From assembly GCA_019636475.1 (NCBI GenBank), contig JAHBXN010000006.1, positions 248,001 to 312,000 on the forward strand: a stretch of 64,000 bases of DNA, written 5' to 3'. Shown one piece after another: positions 47,195 to 57,414 of this stretch. Source of the stretch: Phycisphaerae bacterium (GTDB lineage: Bacteria; Planctomycetota; Phycisphaerae; UBA1845; UTPLA1). A program made the position numbers and the translations under genes. Each line of letters opens with the position of its first letter. The stretch's first letter is position 1. Below the pieces are notes generated by a model that had not been told where the DNA came from, did not search any database, and was given only the letters and a program-made list of their open reading frames with translations.

Positions 47195-47707
47195 TCATGT
47201 CCCGAGTTCGAACGAAACGGTCCGAAGCGGCTGGCCTCTCGTGTCAATCTCCACCCATAGCCGAACTGTCGGTGACAAGTCCTCCGGCACTTCAACGTGG
47301 GTGTGCCAGTGCGATGGCTCCTTCGGATCCTCGATGTCCGCCTTCGCCTTCAATGCGCCTCGGGCGTCCTCGTGGCCGATCCAGAACCGAACGATGGTGT
47401 CCTTCGGTGGTCTGCCTTCCGGCAGGGTGATCCAGACATCGACCGCAGCCTCGCCGCCGGGCATGAGTTCGCCCGGATCACGCGTCGCTCGGACGGTGAG
47501 GCCATCGACAACCGTTGATCCGAGCGGAATCGATTGTACTTCATGATGGGTCTTGGAGCCTTCCGGCCGATCGGCATTCTCTAATTGGGTCGATGACTGC
47601 TGGCGCGTCCCGGGAGTCTGCGATCCGGGCGTAGCCACCGGCTTCCGGTCGCAGGAAGTGCCAGAGACAAGACATGCGACGAGGAGGCTGTAAGCGATTC
47701 GGTTCAT
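47195..47707 (-). CDS. Lipoprotein, last gene of the RND efflux operon
   Basis: A 170-residue protein with a lipobox signal (LVACLVSGTSC). After a disordered linker the domain (GLTVRATRDPGELMPGGEAA, VRFWIGHEDARGALKAKADI, PSHWHTHVEVPEDLSPTVRL) is strand-rich like an Ig- or cupredoxin-like fold. The histidines in HWHTH might bind metal. Its ATG overlaps the RND pump stop by four bases (ATGA), so it is translationally coupled and very likely part of the pump system. I do not recognise a named family. Confidence 0.75.
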   Translation of the reverse strand: MNRIAYSLLVACLVSGTSCDRKPVATPGSQTPGTRQQSSTQLENADRPEGSKTHHEVQSIPLGSTVVDGLTVRATRDPGELMPGGEAAVDVWITLPEGRPPKDTIVRFWIGHEDARGALKAKADIEDPKEPSHWHTHVEVPEDLSPTVRLWVEIDTRGQPLRTVSFELGT

Positions 47708-50700
47708 AATTTGTGATCCTCGCGTGGGTTGGAATCGGCCTCGATGCGATCGGAATGGTCCAGCGAAGCCGGAGCATCCTGCACGCCACTTTGGCCGGGC
47801 AGGCTGCGGCCGGTGAAGACCAGCGAGTAGCCCGCCGGCACGACGATCAGATTCAGGAAAGTGGACGTGATGAGTCCGCCCAGCACGACGATCGCCAGCG
47901 GAGCGAGCAGTTCGCTGCCGGGTTGGCCCATGTGCAATGCCAGTGGCACCAGTCCCAGCGCGGCACTGAGCGCCGTCATCAGAATGGGGACGAGCCGTTC
48001 CATCGAACCTCGGATCACGGCTTCATCAAGGCAGCCTGTCCCGGAGCGATTTGCGGCGGCATCCTCGTCGAGCACATGCCGGTAGTGATTCACAAGCAGG
48101 ATGCCGTTGCGCACGGCGATGCCGAAGAGCGTGACGAAGCCGACCATGCTGGCGATGGAAATGACCGGCGGCTGGTAATGCAGTTCAGACAATCCGAACA
48201 GTGCAAGCGTATTGCGCAGGGGATTCGACGTATCGGTGAGATAGACGGCCGCGATGCCGCCGATCATCGCCAACGGCAGGTTAAGCATCACGAGCAACGC
48301 GGCACGGAGCGAGCCGGTCGAGATCTGCAGGAGCATAACCATGACGACGATGACGCCCAGTCCCGCGACAACTATCGTTCTCGATGCGGACTGCTGCGCT
48401 TCGAACTGACCTCCGTAATGGACTGCGTATCCGGCCTGATGAACAATCGGGTCCACGCGCTTTCGCACCTGCTCGACGAGCTGGCCGAGGTTGAATCCGT
48501 CCGCGACGTTGCATGAAATGACGGCCTTTCGTTGGGCATTTTCGCGTGCGATGAGATTGTTTGTTCGTTCGGGGCCGATATCCGCGACTTCGGCGAGGCG
48601 TACAGTCGCGCCGCCCAGACCCCGCAATTGCAGATCGCGCACCTGTTCGACGCGTTCCCGTTCCTCTGGCGCCAGCCTCACCACCAGTTGATAGCGACGC
48701 ACTCCCTGGTTGACCTCGGCGACGGTTTCGCCGTAAAGGGCCTGCTGCACCTGCTCGGCGGCTGATGCGGGTGTCAGGCCTGCGGCGGCCAGATCATGCG
48801 GTCGGTATCGGATAGGCAGCGACGTGACCATCACTTCGCGGTTTGCGGCGATGTCGCGCGTGCCGGGAACCTGCCTGAGCTCTGATTCGATTTCACTGGC
48901 GATCCTGCGGAGCCGTGCCAGGTCATCGCCATACACGTTGATGGCGATTGCCGCCGGCGTTCCGGAGAGAATGTGCGACAGACGGTGCTCGATCGGCTGA
49001 CCGACGGTCGTGGTGATGCCTGGGACATCGCGCAGGATGTCGTCAATTTCTCGACGCACACGCGACTTGTCCGCTCCCGGATGCATGGTGACTTCAATCT
49101 CGGAATTGCTGACGGGTTCCGCATGCTCGTCGCGTTCAGCGCGGCCGGTACGTCGCGTTACGCTTTCGATGCCTTCCAGGTCGATGAGTCTTTGCTCGAT
49201 GCCGCGTGCGAGGCGGTCGCTCTCAGACAGCGACGTGCCGGGAGGCGCCATCAGAAACACGGTGAATGTTCCCTCGTTGAATGCCGGGAGAAAACTCGTT
49301 CCGTAGGTGGCGCCGAGCCCAATCGCGGCAATCGTCACCAGGAAGGCCGAACCAAGAACGCGACCGCGTTTGTGCAGGGCCCATCGGAGCGAGGGTTCAT
49401 AGAGCCGCTTGAGCCATCGCACGAGCGGACCGTCCGCATGGGTGTATCCGCCGAGACGGCCGCGCAGAAGGTACTTGCACAACGCGGGCGTGACCGTCAG
49501 CGCGATGAACAGCGACGCAAGAATGGAGACGATGTAGGTGATTCCCATGGGCCGGAAGAACCGCCCCTCAAGCCCTTGCATGAACAGAAACGGCGTGAAA
49601 ACGAGCACGATGAGAATCGTCGCGAAGACGACGGAGCTTCGGATCTCGTTGCTGGCGTCGTAAATCACCTGTACGAAGGGGCGGCGCTCCTCGGGTGATC
49701 GGTGGCCGTTCTCCCGAAGGCGTCGAAAGACGTTCTCGACGTCGATGATGGCGTCGTCGACGAGCTCGCCGATCGCGATCGCCAGCCCGCCGAGCGTCAT
49801 GACATTCACGGTCAGACCGAAGTAGTCCAATGTCAGCATGGCGACAGCCATCGAGAGCGGCAGCGCGCTGAGCGTAATGAGCGTAGTACGGATGTTGAGC
49901 AGAAACAGTACGAGTATCGCCGCGACAATGACGCTGGCCTCAATCAACAGACGCTGTAGGTTGTCGATTGATCGCTGGATGAACGCCGACTGCCGAAACA
50001 CCTTCCGGTTGAGGACGATCCCGTCCGGCATTGATTTTTCGATCTGATCCAGCGCGCGGTCGATCTGTTCAGTCAACAACAGCGTGTTGGTACCCGGCGA
50101 TTTCTGCACGCTGAGAACGACCGCGGGCCGGGCGCTGTCCGCGGCGGTACCACGAGCCGGAGCAGGTCCCAACTCAACATCGGCGACTTGTCCGATCAGC
50201 ACGGGGGAGCCATGGTGATACTTGATGAGGCTGTTGGCGATGTCACTGACCTTCTGTACGCGTGCTGCCTGACGTATCGGAAGTTCCTGACGATCGACAT
50301 TCGGCAGGTAGCCGGCGGCCGCGGTGCTGTGGGCGCCGCGCGCCGCCTCGACGACATCGTGGACGGTTAGCCCGTACAGCGACAGCCGGTCCTGATGCAC
50401 GTTGACCTGATACTCAGGCAGTTCGCCTCCGATGGGGACGACCTGGGCGACGCCGGGAACGGCCATCAGGCGATTTCGCAGGTCGAATTCGGCGTAGGCG
50501 CGAAGCTCCAGCCTGCTGACCTTGTTTCCCGGCGAAGACAATGCGAGCAGCATGATCTCGCCGGTGATGGACGTGATGGGAGTGATTTCCGCATGGGCGT
50601 TCTCCGGAAGCGCCTCGCGGACGGCGGAGAGCCGTTCGGTTACTAGCTGGCGGGCGCGGAAAATGTCGGTGCCCCAGTCGAACTCAGCCCAAACGAGAGA

Positions 50701-50970
50701 CAGTCCGATGGCACTCGAACTCCGGACTCGGCGCACACCCGGCAGGCCGTTGACCGACGATTCAATTGGAAAAGTGACATACTGTTCGACTTCATCGGCG
50801 GCCAGGCCGCCCGCTTCGGTCAGGACAACGACCGTGGGAGCGTTGAGTTCCGGGAAGACGTCCACGGGAATCTGTGGCACGCGGTAGACTGCATAGCCGA
50901 GAAACAGCACGGCGGCGCCGATGACCAGCGCGGATCGCTCGAGTGAGAATGCGATCAGCCTTTTGAGCAT
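47704..50970 (-). CDS. Heavy-metal efflux RND permease, CzcA/CusA family
   Basis: The 1088-residue inner-membrane pump of a tripartite metal exporter, driven by the proton motive force. Features: N-terminal MLKRLIAFSLERSALVIGAA, then IPVDVFPELNAPTVVV typical of the heavy-metal branch, TM4 region GELVDDAIIDVENVFRRL with the acidic residues required for proton flow, and GLVPLALHMGQPGSELLAP near the C-terminus. The ATG at 50970 is taken over the longer frame to 51261 because it gives the normal N-terminus. Its 3' end overlaps the lipoprotein gene. Substrate (Cu/Ag versus Co/Zn/Cd) cannot be fixed from the motifs seen. Confidence 0.95.
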   Translation of the reverse strand: MLKRLIAFSLERSALVIGAAVLFLGYAVYRVPQIPVDVFPELNAPTVVVLTEAGGLAADEVEQYVTFPIESSVNGLPGVRRVRSSSAIGLSLVWAEFDWGTDIFRARQLVTERLSAVREALPENAHAEITPITSITGEIMLLALSSPGNKVSRLELRAYAEFDLRNRLMAVPGVAQVVPIGGELPEYQVNVHQDRLSLYGLTVHDVVEAARGAHSTAAAGYLPNVDRQELPIRQAARVQKVSDIANSLIKYHHGSPVLIGQVADVELGPAPARGTAADSARPAVVLSVQKSPGTNTLLLTEQIDRALDQIEKSMPDGIVLNRKVFRQSAFIQRSIDNLQRLLIEASVIVAAILVLFLLNIRTTLITLSALPLSMAVAMLTLDYFGLTVNVMTLGGLAIAIGELVDDAIIDVENVFRRLRENGHRSPEERRPFVQVIYDASNEIRSSVVFATILIVLVFTPFLFMQGLEGRFFRPMGITYIVSILASLFIALTVTPALCKYLLRGRLGGYTHADGPLVRWLKRLYEPSLRWALHKRGRVLGSAFLVTIAAIGLGATYGTSFLPAFNEGTFTVFLMAPPGTSLSESDRLARGIEQRLIDLEGIESVTRRTGRAERDEHAEPVSNSEIEVTMHPGADKSRVRREIDDILRDVPGITTTVGQPIEHRLSHILSGTPAAIAINVYGDDLARLRRIASEIESELRQVPGTRDIAANREVMVTSLPIRYRPHDLAAAGLTPASAAEQVQQALYGETVAEVNQGVRRYQLVVRLAPEERERVEQVRDLQLRGLGGATVRLAEVADIGPERTNNLIARENAQRKAVISCNVADGFNLGQLVEQVRKRVDPIVHQAGYAVHYGGQFEAQQSASRTIVVAGLGVIVVMVMLLQISTGSLRAALLVMLNLPLAMIGGIAAVYLTDTSNPLRNTLALFGLSELHYQPPVISIASMVGFVTLFGIAVRNGILLVNHYRHVLDEDAAANRSGTGCLDEAVIRGSMERLVPILMTALSAALGLVPLALHMGQPGSELLAPLAIVVLGGLITSTFLNLIVVPAGYSLVFTGRSLPGQSGVQDAPASLDHSDRIEADSNPREDHKL

Positions 50971-50974
50971 AGGG

Positions 50975-52534
50975 TCAGTCCTTTTCCTGGTGGAAGGTGC
51001 CGTCCGCGTGGAAGTGACCGCCCTTTTGCGCGCCGCCCGACGTGGCCAGCATGAGCTGATATGCGCCGTCGACGACCACTTCATCTCCTTCCCTGACTCC
51101 GCTGCGAACGACGACCCAGCGGCCGTCGTCCGGCCCGAGATCGGCTTCGACCTTGAGCACCTCGTCGGAATCATTCGGATTGCGGCGGAAGAAGATCGTC
51201 TGAATGCCGTCGTGAATGGTCGCGGCGAGCGGGATGGCCAGTTCCTCGCGGCCGTCCGCATTTGTGATTATTTCAAGATGAGCGGACACGCCGGGCCGCG
51301 CCCAGGAATGAACCGTCGTCGGCGTCATTAGAACCTCGACGGTTCGCTCGTCGGCATCGGCAGCGACACCGAGCATGATCGTGCCGGACATGGTTTGATC
51401 GGCCGGGATCGAACCGCCCCTTGGCGGCACGATGGATGCCGGTAGCCCGTCATGAAGACGCCCGAGGTCACTTTGCAACCCCCTCGCCCGGAATCGGAGC
51501 ATTTCCGGCTGGACGGTCGAAAGCACGATGTCGGATTCAGAGGCCCACGCGCCGTTGGTAAGGGCGAGCGTTTCGACGACGCCGGAAGTCGTTGCCTTTA
51601 CCTCGACGACGCCCATCTCGCGCCAGTAGGGATGCCGGTGCGGATCGGGGTCGGTGTCAATTGCATGGCGTTCCATGCCGGGGCCTGCCGGTCCGATCAG
51701 TTCCTCGCGCGAAATGCCGACGAGAGAGCTTGCGTTCAATAGTAACAGTTGAAACCGTTCGCGGGCCGCGGCCAGTTCGGAGCGCATTTCCGCATTTCGG
51801 GCTTCAAGTTCAGCTTCCTTTTCGAGGACCTCCGATAGCTCCGCCCGGGCGACGGCAAGCGCGGCGCGAACCTGCGCGAACTCCTGCGCCGAGATGATCC
51901 CCGGCTCGCCGGACTGTTCCAGTTGCTCGAGTCGCCGGGTCCATATCTCGACGCTTACCTGAAGATTCTCTTCGTGGCGTCGATGAGCCTGCATCAGCGG
52001 TTCGACGGATGCGACGCGCGCCTCGGCACGCTGAATGCTGGACTCCGTGTCACTCAGACGCTGCTGCAACTCTCGCCACGCTGGAGAATCCAGCATGTAG
52101 AGTGTTGTTCCCGGCTCGACGTGCTGGTATTGAGCGACCTTCAGCTCGACACGGCCGCCCAGCATTGTGCGATATTCTCTCCGTGCCTGCGGCTGAAACT
52201 CGAAACGCCCCGGCATTCGCAGCGTCCGGGTCACGGATCGCCGTTCCACTTTGGCGAAAGTGATACCGAGGTTGCGCCGGACCGTCTCCGGAATATCGAC
52301 ATGATCGGACTGCTCCGTCTCATCGTGGGCTTTGTGTTCGATGGACTTTTCCTCGCGCGACCCATCCTTCTCGGAACGGCAGCCAACGGGAATCAAGAGC
52401 AAAAACAAGACCGACAGGAGCATTCTTGTGACCGAAGTCTCATGCACCGATGAACCCACCTTCAGGATTCTCAGGTCTGAAGCGCCGGCGGTGAATCGGT
52501 CGACGGATCTTGCGCGTTTGTTTAGCGGACTCAT
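50975..52534 (-). CDS. RND efflux periplasmic adaptor, CusB/CzcB type
   Basis: The 519-residue membrane-fusion protein of the pump. It has a lipobox (LLIPVGC), a barrel-sandwich start (GGRVELKVAQYQHVEPGTTL), a long coiled-coil hairpin (about 150-290, rich in Glu, Ala, Leu and Arg) and beta-barrel and membrane-proximal domains (VVEVKATTSGVVETLALTNG, WARPGVSAHLEIIT). The tail has GGHFHADGTFHQ, a His-rich stretch that may bind metal. The ATG at 52534 overlaps the stop of the outer-membrane gene as TGATG, and the pump gene begins four bases after its stop. An internal ATG at 52423 would give a shorter signal peptide. Confidence 0.92.
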   Translation of the reverse strand: MSPLNKRARSVDRFTAGASDLRILKVGSSVHETSVTRMLLSVLFLLLIPVGCRSEKDGSREEKSIEHKAHDETEQSDHVDIPETVRRNLGITFAKVERRSVTRTLRMPGRFEFQPQARREYRTMLGGRVELKVAQYQHVEPGTTLYMLDSPAWRELQQRLSDTESSIQRAEARVASVEPLMQAHRRHEENLQVSVEIWTRRLEQLEQSGEPGIISAQEFAQVRAALAVARAELSEVLEKEAELEARNAEMRSELAAARERFQLLLLNASSLVGISREELIGPAGPGMERHAIDTDPDPHRHPYWREMGVVEVKATTSGVVETLALTNGAWASESDIVLSTVQPEMLRFRARGLQSDLGRLHDGLPASIVPPRGGSIPADQTMSGTIMLGVAADADERTVEVLMTPTTVHSWARPGVSAHLEIITNADGREELAIPLAATIHDGIQTIFFRRNPNDSDEVLKVEADLGPDDGRWVVVRSGVREGDEVVVDGAYQLMLATSGGAQKGGHFHADGTFHQEKD

Positions 52535-54099
52535 CAGCGCGGCCCTCCTGTATCGGGCACCGACCTCGACTCGTCTGCGTCGTCGGGCCGATTGGTCGTT
52601 TCGGGGTTGGGTTCCGCAGCGGCGAGTATTGCCTCAAGCGGCCTGCCGGTACTTAACTCCAGATCGGCCAGCGCGGCGGCCGCGCTCTGTTCGGCGAGCA
52701 CACCCGAACGCCGTGCGGCGAGTAGAATTCGCTGTGCATCGAGTACGACAATGAGGCTTGTTCGGCCCGCGCGGTATGTTTCCTGCGAGAGTTCGAGGTT
52801 GCGGTCGGCCTGTGGTGTCAGGTCCGTTGCATAGAATCGCGCGAGGTGGCAAGCCGTCTGCGCCTGATCGACGCGCTGTCGGACCTCCTGGACGATCGCA
52901 CGATCGATCGCCTCCAGCTGTTTTTGAGCCTTCTCAAGCTCGATCTCCGCTTTCGCGATCTGGGCCTGGTTCTGATCGAAGATCGGCAGCGTGATGGAGA
53001 TCGAAGGCCCCAGAATGGCATTGATCTCCTGTCGTCGCTCCAGATTCCGCTCGCCGCGCGATTGAATCGCCGGAATCGTCGGCGTGCCGGCAGCGATGGA
53101 CGCGCGGGCCGCATCGGCAAATGGCTTTCGGCCGCCCAGCGCGCGGCGTTCCGATCGTTCAAGGAACGGGCCGATCGAGATTTCGGGAAATATTTTGAGG
53201 TATTCAAGGTGCAATCGGGCGGCGGCGGAATCGGCTTGGCGGCGCGCCGCGCTCAGGTCAAGCCGGTTGGCCTTTGCCATCGCGACGACGGCGTCAGCGT
53301 TGATCCTGAGCGTTTTGGGCGTCGTAAGCGAATCGGTCAGTTCGAGCGATTCGGCCGCCAACGTCAGCCCGAGCAGCGTCGCAAGCCGTCGGCGTTCGGA
53401 GTGCGCGGCGAGGCGGGCCTGTTGCAGTTCCAATTTGGCTTCGAGCGTCGTACCACGGGCGAGGTTCAGGTCGAGTTCTCCGACATTGCCCGCGTCCTTG
53501 CGTGCCTGCACGACAGCGAGCAGTCGATCGGCGACCGCGACGTTTTTCCGGGCGATCTCATGCACGGCGTCAGCCGAGAGTGCCGCGTAATAGGCACGTC
53601 GGACTTCGGTTGTCAGTTCGGCCGCCTGCCGGGCCAGATCGAGTATGGCGGCGTCAAGTTCCTTCTCCGCGGCCTTGCGCCGAACGGGAATCTGCCAGAG
53701 TTCCACGATGTTCTGAGCGAGGCTGGCCTGAATGTTGGAGCGGCCGCCGGCTTCGGGAAACTGTATCGAAAGCCCGAGTGATGGATTGGCGAGCAAACCG
53801 GATTGGACCACATCGGCGCATGCGATTCCGACATTGCGATACGCCGCTTGCAGCGTCGGATTGTTCAGCAGGGCGAGCTCGACTGCGCCGCTTGCTGACA
53901 ATCCTGAAGCCAGCAGGGCTTCCACGCGCTTGCTTGCAGCGGCTTCATCAGCCGGGTTATAGGATGCGTCCTGCCCCGTTACATCGGCAATGTACCGGTT
54001 CGCCCGTTCGTAGTCGGCGCGTGGCTCCACCGTTGCGCAACCCGATAGGGCAAGCGCGGCGGATAAGCAGATTGCGAGCCGGCGTTTTTGATCATTCAT
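52534..54099 (-). CDS. Outer-membrane efflux lipoprotein, TolC/CusC type
   Basis: The 521-residue outer-membrane channel of the pump. Signal with lipobox (LALSGC) at about residue 20. Two OEP repeats follow: the first with ASGLSASGAVELALLNNPTL and a long helix (EVRRAYYAALSADAVHEIAR), the second with GPSISITLPIFDQNQAQIAK and VRQRVDQAQTACHLARFYAT, ending in SLIVVLDAQRILLAARR. The ATG at 54099 fits the signal; 17 extra upstream codons are possible. Its last base forms TGATG with the adaptor start. Confidence 0.93.
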   Translation of the reverse strand: MNDQKRRLAICLSAALALSGCATVEPRADYERANRYIADVTGQDASYNPADEAAASKRVEALLASGLSASGAVELALLNNPTLQAAYRNVGIACADVVQSGLLANPSLGLSIQFPEAGGRSNIQASLAQNIVELWQIPVRRKAAEKELDAAILDLARQAAELTTEVRRAYYAALSADAVHEIARKNVAVADRLLAVVQARKDAGNVGELDLNLARGTTLEAKLELQQARLAAHSERRRLATLLGLTLAAESLELTDSLTTPKTLRINADAVVAMAKANRLDLSAARRQADSAAARLHLEYLKIFPEISIGPFLERSERRALGGRKPFADAARASIAAGTPTIPAIQSRGERNLERRQEINAILGPSISITLPIFDQNQAQIAKAEIELEKAQKQLEAIDRAIVQEVRQRVDQAQTACHLARFYATDLTPQADRNLELSQETYRAGRTSLIVVLDAQRILLAARRSGVLAEQSAAAALADLELSTGRPLEAILAAAEPNPETTNRPDDADESRSVPDTGGPR

Positions 54100-54227
54100 C
54101 TGAATAACTCGCTGGCGTTCATGTTCCGTTGTAGACAATCTCACGACCACGACACGGCCGTGTCATGGTGCGATCGCGTGGCGCGACGGGCCCAACGCGC
54201 GGAGCAGTGGCGGATACGGACGGCGAA

Positions 54228-54611
54228 TCAAATCAGAAGGGGAACGCAGGTAGGCAGGCCGATGAGTTCGTGAAAGCTCCGATCCATCGTCAGGATGCGA
54301 TCAGTCGGCCTTATTTCATCGATGCCCGTGGAGTAACACTCCGAAGTGGCATTGCAAAGCTCCATTGGCGGGGCTTCGATCGGCTTGGGCGCCCGTGCGG
54401 CAGCGGTGCAGATACAATCATGCGGCGAGCATGGCGCGCCGCGCTCCTGTTGCTGCTCCGCAGCGCAGTCTCCCGAGTGATGATGGGAAGCGTGGCGGGA
54501 TTCCGGCTGTGAATGTTCCCGCGCATGAGCGGCCGTCTCCGCACCGCAAATCAGCGGGCAGAATGCAATCATCCAGCATACAAGGATGTTGACGAGCATT
54601 CGCGGAAACAT
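54228..54611 (-). CDS. Small exported Cys/His-rich protein, first gene of the RND operon
   Basis: A 127-residue protein. The N-terminal hydrophobic segment (MLVNILVCWMIAFCPLICGA) looks like a signal. The middle has HASHHHSGDC and CSPHDCICTAAA, a cluster of His and Cys that could bind a metal. The C-terminal half (RPTDRILTMDRSFHELIGLP) is more ordered. It is 128 bases before the outer-membrane gene and right behind the operon promoter, so it is probably a metal-binding partner of the pump. I do not recognise a family. The start is either 54611 or the Met four codons later; a -10 ends nine bases before 54611. Confidence 0.65.
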   Translation of the reverse strand: MFPRMLVNILVCWMIAFCPLICGAETAAHAREHSQPESRHASHHHSGDCAAEQQQERGAPCSPHDCICTAAARAPKPIEAPPMELCNATSECYSTGIDEIRPTDRILTMDRSFHELIGLPTCVPLLI

Positions 54612-54620
54612 ACTTAGTAA

Positions 54621-54648
54621 ATCCTATCGGCTGGATTGTCCCGGTCAA
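54621..54648 (-). promoter_or_regulatory. Promoter of the RND efflux operon
   Basis: On the minus strand TTGACC (54648-54643) and TAGGAT (54626-54621) are 16 bases apart. The same -35 and spacing occur before the lipoprotein gene at 33868. Spacing is too short for a MerR-type metal-responsive promoter. Confidence 0.55.
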
Positions 54649-54753: not shown

Positions 54754-57297
54754 CTATAAACCCAGGACTGCCGCCGTAAACAGAGGGATATCGTCAACGT
54801 TGAGCAGGCCGTCGCCGTTCTGGTCAGCCACACAGAGAACCTCGGGAGGGACGGAGGGTGAGATGAGTGCGACGGTGAAGGGCCAGATATCGTTGCCGTC
54901 CAGCAACCCGTCGCCGTTGAGATCGCCGGTGATGCCGGTTGCCTGGCATGCCGGTACGTTTGCCGAGATAACGACGTTGTCAACCTGCCAGCCCAGTTGC
55001 TCGTTGCCGAATGCGTCGATCGTATCGAATCGCCATTCGATCGTTACAGCCTGTCCGGCAAAACCAGTGAGATTCACGACCCGCTGCTGCCACGGCGACG
55101 ACGCCAGATTGCCCGACGCCGGCTCGTCAACGACCGCGCCGTTGACTCGCACCGACGGCCAGTCCAGCGTGCCGAACGCCTCGCGTTGAAACGTGGAGCA
55201 ATACTTCAGCGTGATCTGATCGCTGTCGGGCAGTGTAATCGGGGCTGTGGTCAACCGGCTGTCCGTCGCGCCGGCGTCGTAATTACAGGTCGCGTCAATC
55301 CCGCAGTAGGCCCATGCCGCCCCGTCGCACGGCGAAGGCACGGTACACGCTTCGCTGACGTGCCAGAGCTGAGTCGCTGTCCAATCGGGCGGCAGGCCGT
55401 CTTCGAAATCCTCCGAATAGATATCCTGCAGTTGAAGCACGCCAATCGACAGATTCCGGGGAGTCCCCGGGGCCGTTGACGGAAAATAGACGGTCTGTCC
55501 GATTGTCGTCTGAGCGGAGATGTAGTAGCTCGCTTCTGTTCCGCAGGTTGCTGCGGGCAACTCCCCTCGATGCAGCGTGGCGCTAAGCGCGATCAGCGGG
55601 GCGCTTCCTGACGCCGAGCCATATTGATAGTGGAGAACCGCGGTTCCGGGTTGGAACTCATCGGCGCAATCCCGGATGTCCACTTCGAAGCTGATCGGTT
55701 CGCATGGCGGAAGCAGGTTGGGTGCGGGCTGGCCGCCATTGAAGTCGAATCGCAAAGGCGCAGGCGGCGTGACGTAGAACTGCTGCGGCTCGCCGACGGC
55801 GATATTGCCTGCCCAGTCCTTGGCCTGAACGTAATAGGAAATTGTCCCGCCACAAGGCTGCCCCGGGATGACGCCGCGATATATCTGGCCGCCGCTGTAT
55901 CGCATCGGGACACGCGCGGGGGGGTGTCCGTTCACTGAGAAATTCAGAAAGATGCCTTTGTCGAAAAAGTTCCGATCGGACGTCATTCCGTCGAGAATGG
56001 CGGCGCGAACAACGTACGGGCCGGTCGTATCGTCGGTATCGCTGAGCTGCTCCAGCTTTACGATGCGCGGCGGGATCGTGTCGGCCGGCCCAAAGTTGGT
56101 GTAGATGCGGTTCGCGAAGTTTCCGGATTCGCCCTGCGCAGTCACGATATCGAGGCGGCCGTTGTTATTAAGGTCCCCCACCTTCACATCGAGCGATGAA
56201 TCGCTGACGGCCGTAATGATCCCGGCGGCCTGGCTGAAAATGCCGTTCCCGTCGTTGGTGTAGATTCGTTCGGATGTCCCGCCGAGCGCGGCGATGATTA
56301 TGTCGAGATCGCCGTCATTGTCGTAGTCGAAGAACTTGCTGTCGTTGTCGTCAACCGTCGGATTGGTCTGCAACTGGCTGCTGACGTTCGTGAATCCGCC
56401 GAGGCCGTCGTTCAGCAGAAGGAGCTCGGTATTGTTCGGCCCGGCATTTGCTCCGAGCAGGTCGAGATGCCCGTCGCCGTTCATGTCGCCGAAGTCGTAG
56501 GAATAGCAGGTGCTGTCTGCCGGTACGCCCGCGACCAGCGTGAAGACGCCGTTGCCGTTATTTCGCAGCAGCTTGCTGTTATTGGTTCCGCGGCCGGCGG
56601 TTCGGATGTCGAGATCAAAATCTCCGTCGATGTCACCGAATATACAGTCCATGGGTTCACAGAAATTCTCGATCGGGTGCCGTGAGGCTGTCTCGTCCGT
56701 GAAGAATCCGAATCCGTTGTTGATATAGACGCGCGATTGCCCACAGCCAAACCGGCTTGCGCCGCCGCTGACGAAGTACAGATCGAGATCGCCGTCGTTA
56801 TCGATGTCGGCCATCCCGACGCGCGAGCTACTGAGGTTCAGGGCCGGAAGCCGGGCGGCCGTCACATTCGTGAAAAAACCATTGCCGTCGTTAAGAAACA
56901 ACGCGGGCCTTCGATTGAAATCCTGGGCAAAGACCAGATCGAGATCTCCATCGTTGTCGATATCGCCCAGTTCAACGCCACGGCAGATGCCGCTGAAGTT
57001 CAGGCGCGCGACTGATTGATCGGTAAATGTGCCGCTTCCGTTGTTGATGAAGATACGCTGAACCTGCGGCGTTTCGGCCGAGGTGAATCCGGCGCCATTG
57101 GCGAAGATGATGTCCAGGTCGCCGTCGTTGTCGATGTCGCCGATGGTCAACTGGTTTGTGTACTCGGCCGGATTCGGAAATGGAAACTGCGAGTTGGTGC
57201 TGTCGATGAATTGCTGTGCGATCGCCGTCGCCGGTACGACCGTGCAGCCGATCAGGGCCATGAAGAGCCCGAGTGCGCGACAAGCGCGTAAGTGCAT
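54754..57297 (-). CDS. Exported FG-GAP/VCBS repeat protein with dockerin-like C-terminus
   Basis: An 847-residue exported protein. The signal is at residues 1-29 (GLFMALIGCTVVPATAIAQQ). Residues about 45-420 are FG-GAP-type repeats: at least eight copies of a phrase like GDIDNDGDLDLVFA or GDMNGDGHLDLLGA, each a calcium-binding loop of a beta-propeller. Then beta-sandwich domains follow. The last 55 residues are a dockerin/EF-hand-like pair (GDLNGDGLLDGNDIWPFTVA and DQNGDGLLNVDDIPLFTAAV). The Asp-rich loops imply calcium binding and adhesive or surface use. GGAAGG precedes the ATG at 57297. No cohesin was found near it. Confidence 0.87.
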   Translation of the reverse strand: MHLRACRALGLFMALIGCTVVPATAIAQQFIDSTNSQFPFPNPAEYTNQLTIGDIDNDGDLDIIFANGAGFTSAETPQVQRIFINNGSGTFTDQSVARLNFSGICRGVELGDIDNDGDLDLVFAQDFNRRPALFLNDGNGFFTNVTAARLPALNLSSSRVGMADIDNDGDLDLYFVSGGASRFGCGQSRVYINNGFGFFTDETASRHPIENFCEPMDCIFGDIDGDFDLDIRTAGRGTNNSKLLRNNGNGVFTLVAGVPADSTCYSYDFGDMNGDGHLDLLGANAGPNNTELLLLNDGLGGFTNVSSQLQTNPTVDDNDSKFFDYDNDGDLDIIIAALGGTSERIYTNDGNGIFSQAAGIITAVSDSSLDVKVGDLNNNGRLDIVTAQGESGNFANRIYTNFGPADTIPPRIVKLEQLSDTDDTTGPYVVRAAILDGMTSDRNFFDKGIFLNFSVNGHPPARVPMRYSGGQIYRGVIPGQPCGGTISYYVQAKDWAGNIAVGEPQQFYVTPPAPLRFDFNGGQPAPNLLPPCEPISFEVDIRDCADEFQPGTAVLHYQYGSASGSAPLIALSATLHRGELPAATCGTEASYYISAQTTIGQTVYFPSTAPGTPRNLSIGVLQLQDIYSEDFEDGLPPDWTATQLWHVSEACTVPSPCDGAAWAYCGIDATCNYDAGATDSRLTTAPITLPDSDQITLKYCSTFQREAFGTLDWPSVRVNGAVVDEPASGNLASSPWQQRVVNLTGFAGQAVTIEWRFDTIDAFGNEQLGWQVDNVVISANVPACQATGITGDLNGDGLLDGNDIWPFTVALISPSVPPEVLCVADQNGDGLLNVDDIPLFTAAVLGL

Positions 57298-57385
57298 TGC
57301 CAAACCTTCCGTTGATGCGATGGACGTAAGCTGCCGCGCGAGCCTGCCAATTTGCCCTTCCCCTTCGCGGCCTCTGCAAGCCCAT

Positions 57386-57414
57386 ATCATAGCAGAATCC
57401 GCGGTGCGAATTCA
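57386..57414 (-). promoter_or_regulatory. Promoter of the FG-GAP protein gene
   Basis: On the minus strand TGAATT (57414-57409) and TATGAT (57391-57386) are 17 bases apart, with a TG one base before the -10 (extended -10). It would give a leader of about 80 bases. Confidence 0.45.

Follow-up and report, generated by a model that had tools for sequence, protein, structure and literature searches.

A planctomycete RND metal pump operon with a partner lipoprotein of predicted CrdA-like fold and a leader-like first gene

A five-gene operon was analyzed in a stretch of Phycisphaerae bacterium DNA of 64,000 nucleotides (nt) (assembly GCA_019636475.1, contig JAHBXN010000006.1, positions 248,001 to 312,000), which is referred to here as the window. 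The genes run along the minus strand from 54611 to 47195 and encode a small exported protein (P0001), a TolC-family channel, a periplasmic adaptor, a resistance-nodulation-division (RND) permease (P0005), and a lipoprotein (P0002). The operon is genuine and is conserved among Planctomycetota, and the P0002 family is a near-obligate partner of one metal-pump clade. We interpret the locus, with a probability of about 0.55, as a nie-type (HME5-like) exporter of a metal, most likely divalent, combined with a metal-binding accessory lipoprotein and a cis-acting metal-sensing leader. In such a system, the tripartite exporter (P0005, P0004, and P0003) would move a transition metal, likely divalent (Ni, Co, Zn, or Cd), out of the envelope, the pump expelling it by its histidine site. 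The membrane-anchored immunoglobulin (Ig)-like domain of P0002 would bind metal at an H/D-x-H-x-E strand site, with a His/Asp-rich linker assisting in many relatives, and would probably buffer the metal or pass it to the adaptor and pump, as proposed for CrdA with copper. The His/Cys stretch of P0001 would meet periplasmic metal during export, and the conserved C-terminus would report the state of the nascent chain, which may set the expression of tolC and the adaptor, pump, and lipoprotein genes.

Operon layout and the pump

A preliminary description of this DNA had placed five genes here and coupled the channel, adaptor, and pump genes by TGATG, a four-base gap, and ATGA. All five genes were confirmed at their coordinates, and the three junctions are present, TGATG between the tolC gene and the adaptor open reading frame (ORF), the 4-base gap between adaptor and pump, and ATGA between pump and lipoprotein. 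The features are as follows, with positions in the window.

54228..54611, minus strand: P0001, 127 residues, with an N-terminal hydrophobic segment, a His/Cys-rich center, and TCVPLLI as the C-terminus, right before the stop codon; proposed to be a metal-sensing leader coupled to export
54231..54242, minus strand: PLLI C-terminus of P0001, a stop-anchored motif kept in relatives via varied codons
54100..54227, minus strand: gap of 128 nt between the P0001 stop and the start of tolC; the window sequence shows no significant stem-loop (z −0.12)
52534..54099, minus strand: TolC-family outer-membrane channel, 521 residues; the ATG chosen gives the lipoprotein-like signal LALSGC
50975..52534, minus strand: periplasmic adaptor ORF, 519 residues; likelier start ATG at 52423 (MLLSVLFLLLIPVGC)
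47704..50970, minus strand: P0005, RND permease, 1,088 residues, nie/HME5-like, with H616, H662, and H666 at a putative proximal metal site
49123..49125, minus strand: codon of pump His616 (the His in DEHAEPVS)
48973..48987, minus strand: codons of pump His662 to His666 (HRLSH); His666 aligns with CusA Met672
47195..47707, minus strand: P0002, lipoprotein, 170 residues, with an Ig-like domain of CrdA-like predicted fold at residues 60 to 170
47297..47311, minus strand: HWHTH, P0002 residues 133 to 137, within a predicted strand at 130 to 139
54621..54648, minus strand: promoter-like site TTGACC-16-TAGGAT directly before the operon; not above chance, with 1 found versus 1.8 expected in the stretch scanned

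Read from the TGATG start, the adaptor has 37 extra residues ahead of MLLSVLFLLLIPVGC, and its lipoprotein signal begins at residue 38. The ATG at 52423, inside the ORF, is therefore the likelier start. Hence, although the TGATG sequence itself is present, it may not truly couple the tolC and adaptor genes.

P0005 scored 807.4 bits over residues 6 to 1051 against the Pfam RND permease model PF00873, for which the curated cutoff is 28, and 696.3 bits against the NCBIfam CusA/CzcA model TIGR00914, 5 short of the cutoff of 701.45 but still the best model in the library. It was therefore filed as an RND permease working like an HME pump rather than as a formal CusA/CzcA member. The search for P0005 covered 392 genomes of the phylum; among the matches listed, the clade shares approximately 52 to 74% identity with it, and a sister group lies near 41 to 48%. 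The sister or outside pumps used for comparison numbered 26, 22 from the phylum and 4 from plasmids. The three histidines of the putative proximal site were nearly invariant among the aligned clade pumps (H616 and H662 in 92/92, H666 in 91/92), and they were also found in 26/26 sister or outside pumps, as well as in three nie-like pumps from plasmids, which have 40.5 to 41.6% identity to P0005. Their equivalents were absent from the aligned CzcA and SilA of Cupriavidus metallidurans. The preliminary identification of an RND metal pump is supported.

The closest solved pumps to P0005 were CusA and ZneA. In the alignment, CusA Met573, Met623, and Met672 correspond to F, N, and H in P0005, so the methionines of a CusA-type Cu/Ag pump are not found there. 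In the nie/class 6 motifs, P0005 keeps one His in HAE and two in HRLxH, and the second His of HAEGVH is Ser. These motifs are described for nieIC-cep-nieBA of Cupriavidus neocaledonicus STM 6070, an RND-HME5 system of a proposed class 6 that was put forward as a nickel exporter partly for HAEGVH and HRLDH (PMC7060636); since P0005 shares such histidines with the proposed nickel pump NieA, a divalent metal is preferred here. Genes for cation diffusion facilitator (CDF) exporters, present in 6/93 clade loci, lend slight further weight to a divalent metal. CDF proteins are usually not copper exporters. In two cases (G426:C25 and G373:C30), two clade pump genes were seen near each other on one contig.

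The lipoprotein family and its pump clade

The linkage of P0002 to the pump was counted from both sides. Pumps fetched by the pump alone, excluding those already fetched through P0002, comprised 59 clade members of at least 50% identity, of which 53 had at least 1 kb of sequence beyond the pump; by domain coordinates, a P0002-family gene stood behind 52 of these 53. Among the matches listed in the 392-genome pump search, such a gene lay directly behind 73/77 clade pumps. Three of the four others were partial or at a contig edge, and the fourth (G008) was without it in the stretch seen. Behind the 26 sister or outside pumps, there was one match, a weak one. From the lipoprotein side, 79 of 100 family matches below an E value of 1e-11 in the 392 genomes were directly behind listed clade pumps, a count that leaves out the 16 weakest rows (E 3.5e-10 to 1e-6). 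In a genome collection, a P0005 match was found just ahead of the lipoprotein in 23/23 loci retrieved by the lipoprotein, whose titles name 20 planctomycetes, 2 entries of uncultured bacterium, and 1 Bacteroidia. Matches to P0002 occurred in 37/198 genomes of the class, including that of the window, and a search of plasmids returned none. Exported ORFs with at least 8 His followed 61/88 clade pumps versus 3/26 sister or outside pumps, L207 and L209 being two of the 3.

Additional copies of the lipoprotein gene were also noted. Tandem copies behind the pump were seen at G090:C6, G119:C74, G262:C20, G367:C56, G379:C9, and G399:C165, and copies away from a clade pump at G032:C1:1150996, G013:C1:456022, G003:C19:222779, and L081. 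The copy at L081 adjoins an RND pump whose identity to P0005 is only 28.8%.

Neither P0002 nor P0001 matched any Pfam or NCBIfam model at E values up to 1, in agreement with the earlier statement that neither belongs to a recognized family. The matches of 54 P0002 relatives to Pfam and NCBIfam were scattered and weak, none of them convincing. For YtkA-like PF13115, there was no match to P0002 and a match in 2/54 relatives (best E 0.0038). ZrgA (NF047873) was considered and rejected: it matched 8/54 relatives with a best E of 1.6e-5, far below its 185-bit cutoff, and did not match P0002, and in the two relatives looked at, the match of 21 to 25 bits covered residues 10 to 69, which are the signal and the His/Asp linker. 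Searches of PDB sequences with P0002 and A2 yielded no convincing relative of the C-terminal domain.

The P0002 domain is predicted to be an Ig-like sandwich with a CrdA-like fold. In the AlphaFold2 model, the mean predicted local distance difference test score was at least 90 in each 10-residue block from 61 to 170, and the structure was essentially all beta. Foldseek returned two CrdA structures (E 5.6e-5 and 3.4e-4) as the only matches below 0.001. By VIA, CrdA (Z 10.6, root mean square deviation 3.0 over 101 residues) and FetP (Z 10.3) were tied, followed by HftA at 9.5, the domains of unknown function DUF4426 and DUF4785 at 8.9 and 8.7, and P19, FtrA, and Tp34 near 8.5, with antibody-type Ig domains trailing near Z 6. 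Ahead of the domain, P0002 carries a lipobox-like GTSC at Cys19; because starts were chosen to include a lipobox-like motif, the lipobox is present in every aligned relative by construction, and relatives without such a start were omitted from the lipoprotein reference list. The linker that follows is often rich in His and acidic residues in the relatives, with at least 4 His in 38/54 and 2 in the window protein. After the linker, the domain contains a conserved R-x-W-x-G and a later Trp.

The HWHTH singled out by the preliminary description is present in the window protein and is not invariant in the family, where ligand-type residues are instead kept at alternate positions. Residues 135 and 137 were H, D, or E in 51/54 members each, with His at 137 in 46, and residue 139 was E or D in 34/54, whereas residues 134, 136, 138, and 140 were of ligand type in 0, 1, 0, and 0 of 54. 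Since alternate positions of a strand would point to one face, this strand is a plausible ligand site. The CrdA fold match and the pattern at 135, 137, and 139 suggest that P0002 is probably a periplasmic metal-binding partner, as the preliminary description had supposed for both end proteins.

The first gene

Leader ORFs were sought among ORFs of 80 to 240 residues whose ends lie close to tolC, on the condition that the N-terminus be hydrophobic and that His and Cys beyond residue 25 total at least 8. The sample began as 94 operons of the clade, of which 14 were missed by the TolC finder and 6 were without room; a stricter room limit gave 73. A His/Cys leader ORF preceded tolC in 68/73, compared with 9/73 on the reverse strand, 1/73 in shuffled sequence, and 0/73 inside the pump gene. 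Both end genes are thus linked to RND pumps in other genomes (lipoprotein, 52/53 and 73/77; leader ORF, 68/73), a point on which the preliminary description had made its proposal depend. A leader-type His/Cys ORF was also found in 4/8 sister or outside operons with a located TolC, and the leader is therefore not special to this pump clade.

The protein product of the first gene matters, as dN/dS was 0.18 to 0.56 by simple count in 12 close pairs, a sign of purifying selection. Its sequence otherwise varies greatly (mean column identity, 14% across 57), and the structure model of P0001 is confident only in the N-terminal helix at residues 2 to 33 and mostly unordered beyond. The conserved part is the end. 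All of the last three residues were within the set LIVTFRQ in 54/68 leaders versus 1/34 lipoproteins, with differing codons. Before Pro-Pro was counted, four candidates (L140, L164, L160, and L166) were removed as miscalls or other proteins; Pro-Pro was then found in the last 15 residues of 35/69 relatives and in the last 45 of 58/69. Ends of the R[AG]PP type (RAPP or RGPP) occurred in 8/69 positional relatives, all in genomes outside the class of the window. The candidate at the leader place in two of the removed cases, L160 and L166, is a lipoprotein of 222 to 236 residues with a CCWTGC motif upstream of tolC.

When 57 leader relatives were compared with Pfam and NCBIfam, scattered weak matches were obtained. 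The DUF2946/CruR model PF11162 gave no match to P0001 and matched 2/57 relatives (best E 0.0017), and the CzcI model NF045614 did not match P0001 at E values up to 1 and was not among the families listed for the 57 relatives.

CutF and CruR are described as small exported proteins that head metal operons, in which the nascent chain senses metal and the signal is read via a C-terminal Pro-rich or RAPP motif (PMC9973294, PMC9426467). A motif of the RAPP kind arrests translation in CruR, whose route involves a 162-nt gap and Rho (PMC9426467), and in CutF a stem-loop shields the Shine-Dalgarno sequence of the next gene (PMC9973294). The survey in PMC9973294 selected proteins of <150 residues with a signal peptide, PP in the last 15 residues, and a same-strand downstream gene within 1,000 nt; as presented there, outer-membrane efflux genes were the most frequent neighbors, SilD, CusD, and CopL belonged to the network, and Planctomycetota were not among the three main phyla. 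P0001 agrees in size (127 residues) and in spacing (same-strand tolC 128 nt downstream). Its N-terminus is hydrophobic, with a predicted helix at residues 2 to 33. It ends in ...HELIGLPTCVPLLI and does not contain Pro-Pro in the last 15 residues, and it is therefore called leader-like here rather than a CutF-like member. Because layout and position match the CutF/CruR/SilD class, P0001 is probably regulatory, and by this comparison it resembles those sensors more than a chaperone, so that the metal-delivery role given to it in the preliminary description probably does not stand.

We tentatively suggest, as a minority possibility, that the leader represents a new kind of arrest peptide that senses metal while being exported and whose hydrophobic motif anchored at the stop (ends such as PLLI, TTRLLI, and LRTVILLT) replaces or joins Pro-Pro. 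The ribosome would pause at termination and thereby control the whole exporter and its dedicated CrdA-fold lipoprotein, which is found mostly with this pump clade. In the RNA tests for a CutF-type stem-loop, which were negative overall, tolC sites were not less open than pump sites (p 0.83) and were less open than lipoprotein sites (p 0.001), and the model paired the leader-stop region with the stretch before tolC in the single operons L221, L225, and L229.

Directly upstream of the operon, on the same strand, the window encodes a long secreted-looking repeat protein (54754-57390).

Weight of the evidence and comparison with known systems

Several observations weigh against an exporter with a dedicated lipoprotein and a metal-sensing leader. 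The pump histidines cannot explain the lipoprotein, because the 26 sister or outside pumps carry them equally. The other 21 of the 100 lipoprotein-family matches were not behind a listed clade pump; five of them start <1.1 kb from the contig start, so that a pump could not be seen, and some are separate copies, such as one in G032 at 30 kb from the pump. The sister pumps L207 and L209 have another lipoprotein in that place, with a His-rich linker and an HGG motif, and an unrelated or very distant lipoprotein can therefore occupy the position of P0002. On the side of the leader, a CutF-type stem-loop was not supported (z of −0.12 for the window and −0.93 on average for 19 regions), long-range pairing over 19 operons gave a combined p of 0.94, and P0001 itself is without Pro-Pro in the last 45 residues. 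Profiles of the leader and of CzcI/SilD-type proteins were compared, and homology was rejected, as the signal-peptide region alone aligned. With respect to the metal, 5/93 clade loci have P-type ATPases, of which 2 are closer by score to a Cu-type query and 3 to CzcP, and the fold neighbors of P0002 include copper-bound proteins.

The last points bear on a possible, though in our judgment less than likely, copper or silver system, in which the pump would export Cu, P0002 would be a CrdA-like Cu chaperone, and P0001 a Cu-sensing leader. The neighbors CrdA, FetP, P19, HftA, and FtrA have copper- or silver-bound structures by title, Cys-bearing CutF-like leaders are described as mostly preceding copper genes (PMC9973294), and copper has been linked to CopA, an HME5 pump of cyanobacteria (PMC7060636). 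Against this, P0005 keeps no CusA methionine (F, N, and H in their places), though 6/92 clade pumps have Met at the first place, P0002 is without the Met-rich motif of CrdA, and CDF genes neighbor the 6/93 loci noted above.

Three further proposals concern the role of P0001. That both end proteins are chaperones delivering metal to the pump, the preliminary view, now seems unlikely: both are exported, carry His, stay with the pump, and are conserved at the protein level, but P0001 is not confidently modeled past its N-terminal helix, its conserved end is anchored to the stop, and CutF and CruR, alike in layout and place, act as leaders (PMC9973294, PMC9426467). P0001 may instead be a periplasmic pump inhibitor preventing over-export of an essential metal, as proposed for CzcI, which heads czcICBA and is reported to quench CzcCBA for Zn and Co (PMC10127602). 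P0001 shares the position and a similar layout with CzcI; we nevertheless consider such a role doubtful in view of the missing NF045614 match, at E up to 1 for P0001 and in the families listed for the 57 relatives, and a profile alignment confined to the signal region. An improbable final alternative is that the hydrophobic C-terminus is a tail for a periplasmic PDZ protease, which would make P0001 a degradable metal-stress signal rather than an arrest peptide. PDZ proteases are able to read non-polar C-termini, and the tail is strictly terminal, as the 54/68 versus 1/34 count indicates, but Pro-Pro at most 45 residues from the end in 58/69 relatives fits an arrest peptide better.

The preliminary description had put the operon forward as a candidate for an undescribed system. 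This probably holds for the lipoprotein family, which has no convincing match in Pfam or NCBIfam; the operon as a whole is less undescribed than was claimed, because czcICBA, silDCBA, crdAB-czcBA, and nieIC-cep-nieBA have a small first gene or an extra periplasmic metal protein. By its published description, nieIC-cep-nieBA likewise begins with a small gene followed by channel, adaptor, and pump, and its HAE and HRLxH histidines recur in DEHAEPVS and HRLSH of P0005. Unlike nie, the present operon has no cep between channel and adaptor, and the plasmid nie-like relatives end in an HGG-type protein instead of a P0002-type one. This small periplasmic HGG protein lies at L098:9181-9558, L213:8926-9312, L215:8941-9318, and L217:6923-7321; its family occurs in 29 plasmid records and is not mentioned in the section on nie in PMC7060636. 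The HGG proteins of nie-like operons in proteobacteria were considered as homologs of P0002 and rejected (hhalign probability 51%, 24 columns only). The His-rich HGG-type lipoprotein of the planctomycete sister pumps L207 and L209 may link the HGG and P0002 families. In Thauera pTX1 (L218:3325-3666), a gene annotated as a P-II family regulator was noted between adaptor and CzcA.

The copper efflux genes crdA-crdB-czcB-czcA (HP1326-1329) of Helicobacter pylori similarly encode an RND metal pump together with a metal protein of the periplasm, and CrdA, with its Ig-like fold, is the best Foldseek match of the P0002 domain. CrdA is described as the first of four gene products, Met-rich and without His (PMC9182242, PMC12319023), whereas P0002 is last, has H-x-H, and has no Met motif; the two are 13 to 17% identical, and the CrdA motif MMXEMPGMXXMXEM (PMC9182242) was absent from P0002 and from an alignment of 34 family members. 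P0001 resembles CutF, CruR, SilD, CusD, and CopL in being small, exported, rich in metal ligands, and first before metal genes, often an outer-membrane efflux gene. It differs from the CutF/CruR/SilD class in having no Pro-Pro near its end, in the stop-anchored L-L-I type end of many relatives, and in that no CutF-type stem-loop was found. SilD of C. metallidurans is similar to P0001 in layout and ends PRPPPRPLAILHCCFRI. CzcI of the same species shares with P0001 the position, a putative signal peptide, and the His/Cys center; CzcI ends RAPDRPQWQRLA, and P0001 has no family-model match.

In the literature searched, no title or abstract opening was found that describes this planctomycete operon. 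The lipoprotein family, which no model represents in the copies of Pfam and NCBIfam that were searched, offers a candidate ligand site that can be mutated. The leader ORFs suggest that export-coupled metal-sensing leaders are widespread in Planctomycetota, and their C-terminal motif could be a different arrest signal. The supply and setting of RND metal pumps by periplasmic metal thus becomes testable outside Pseudomonadota. Metal pumps with a leader and metal pumps with a CrdA-type protein are already known separately; new, as far as searched, are their combination, the lipoprotein family, and the stop-anchored end of the leader.

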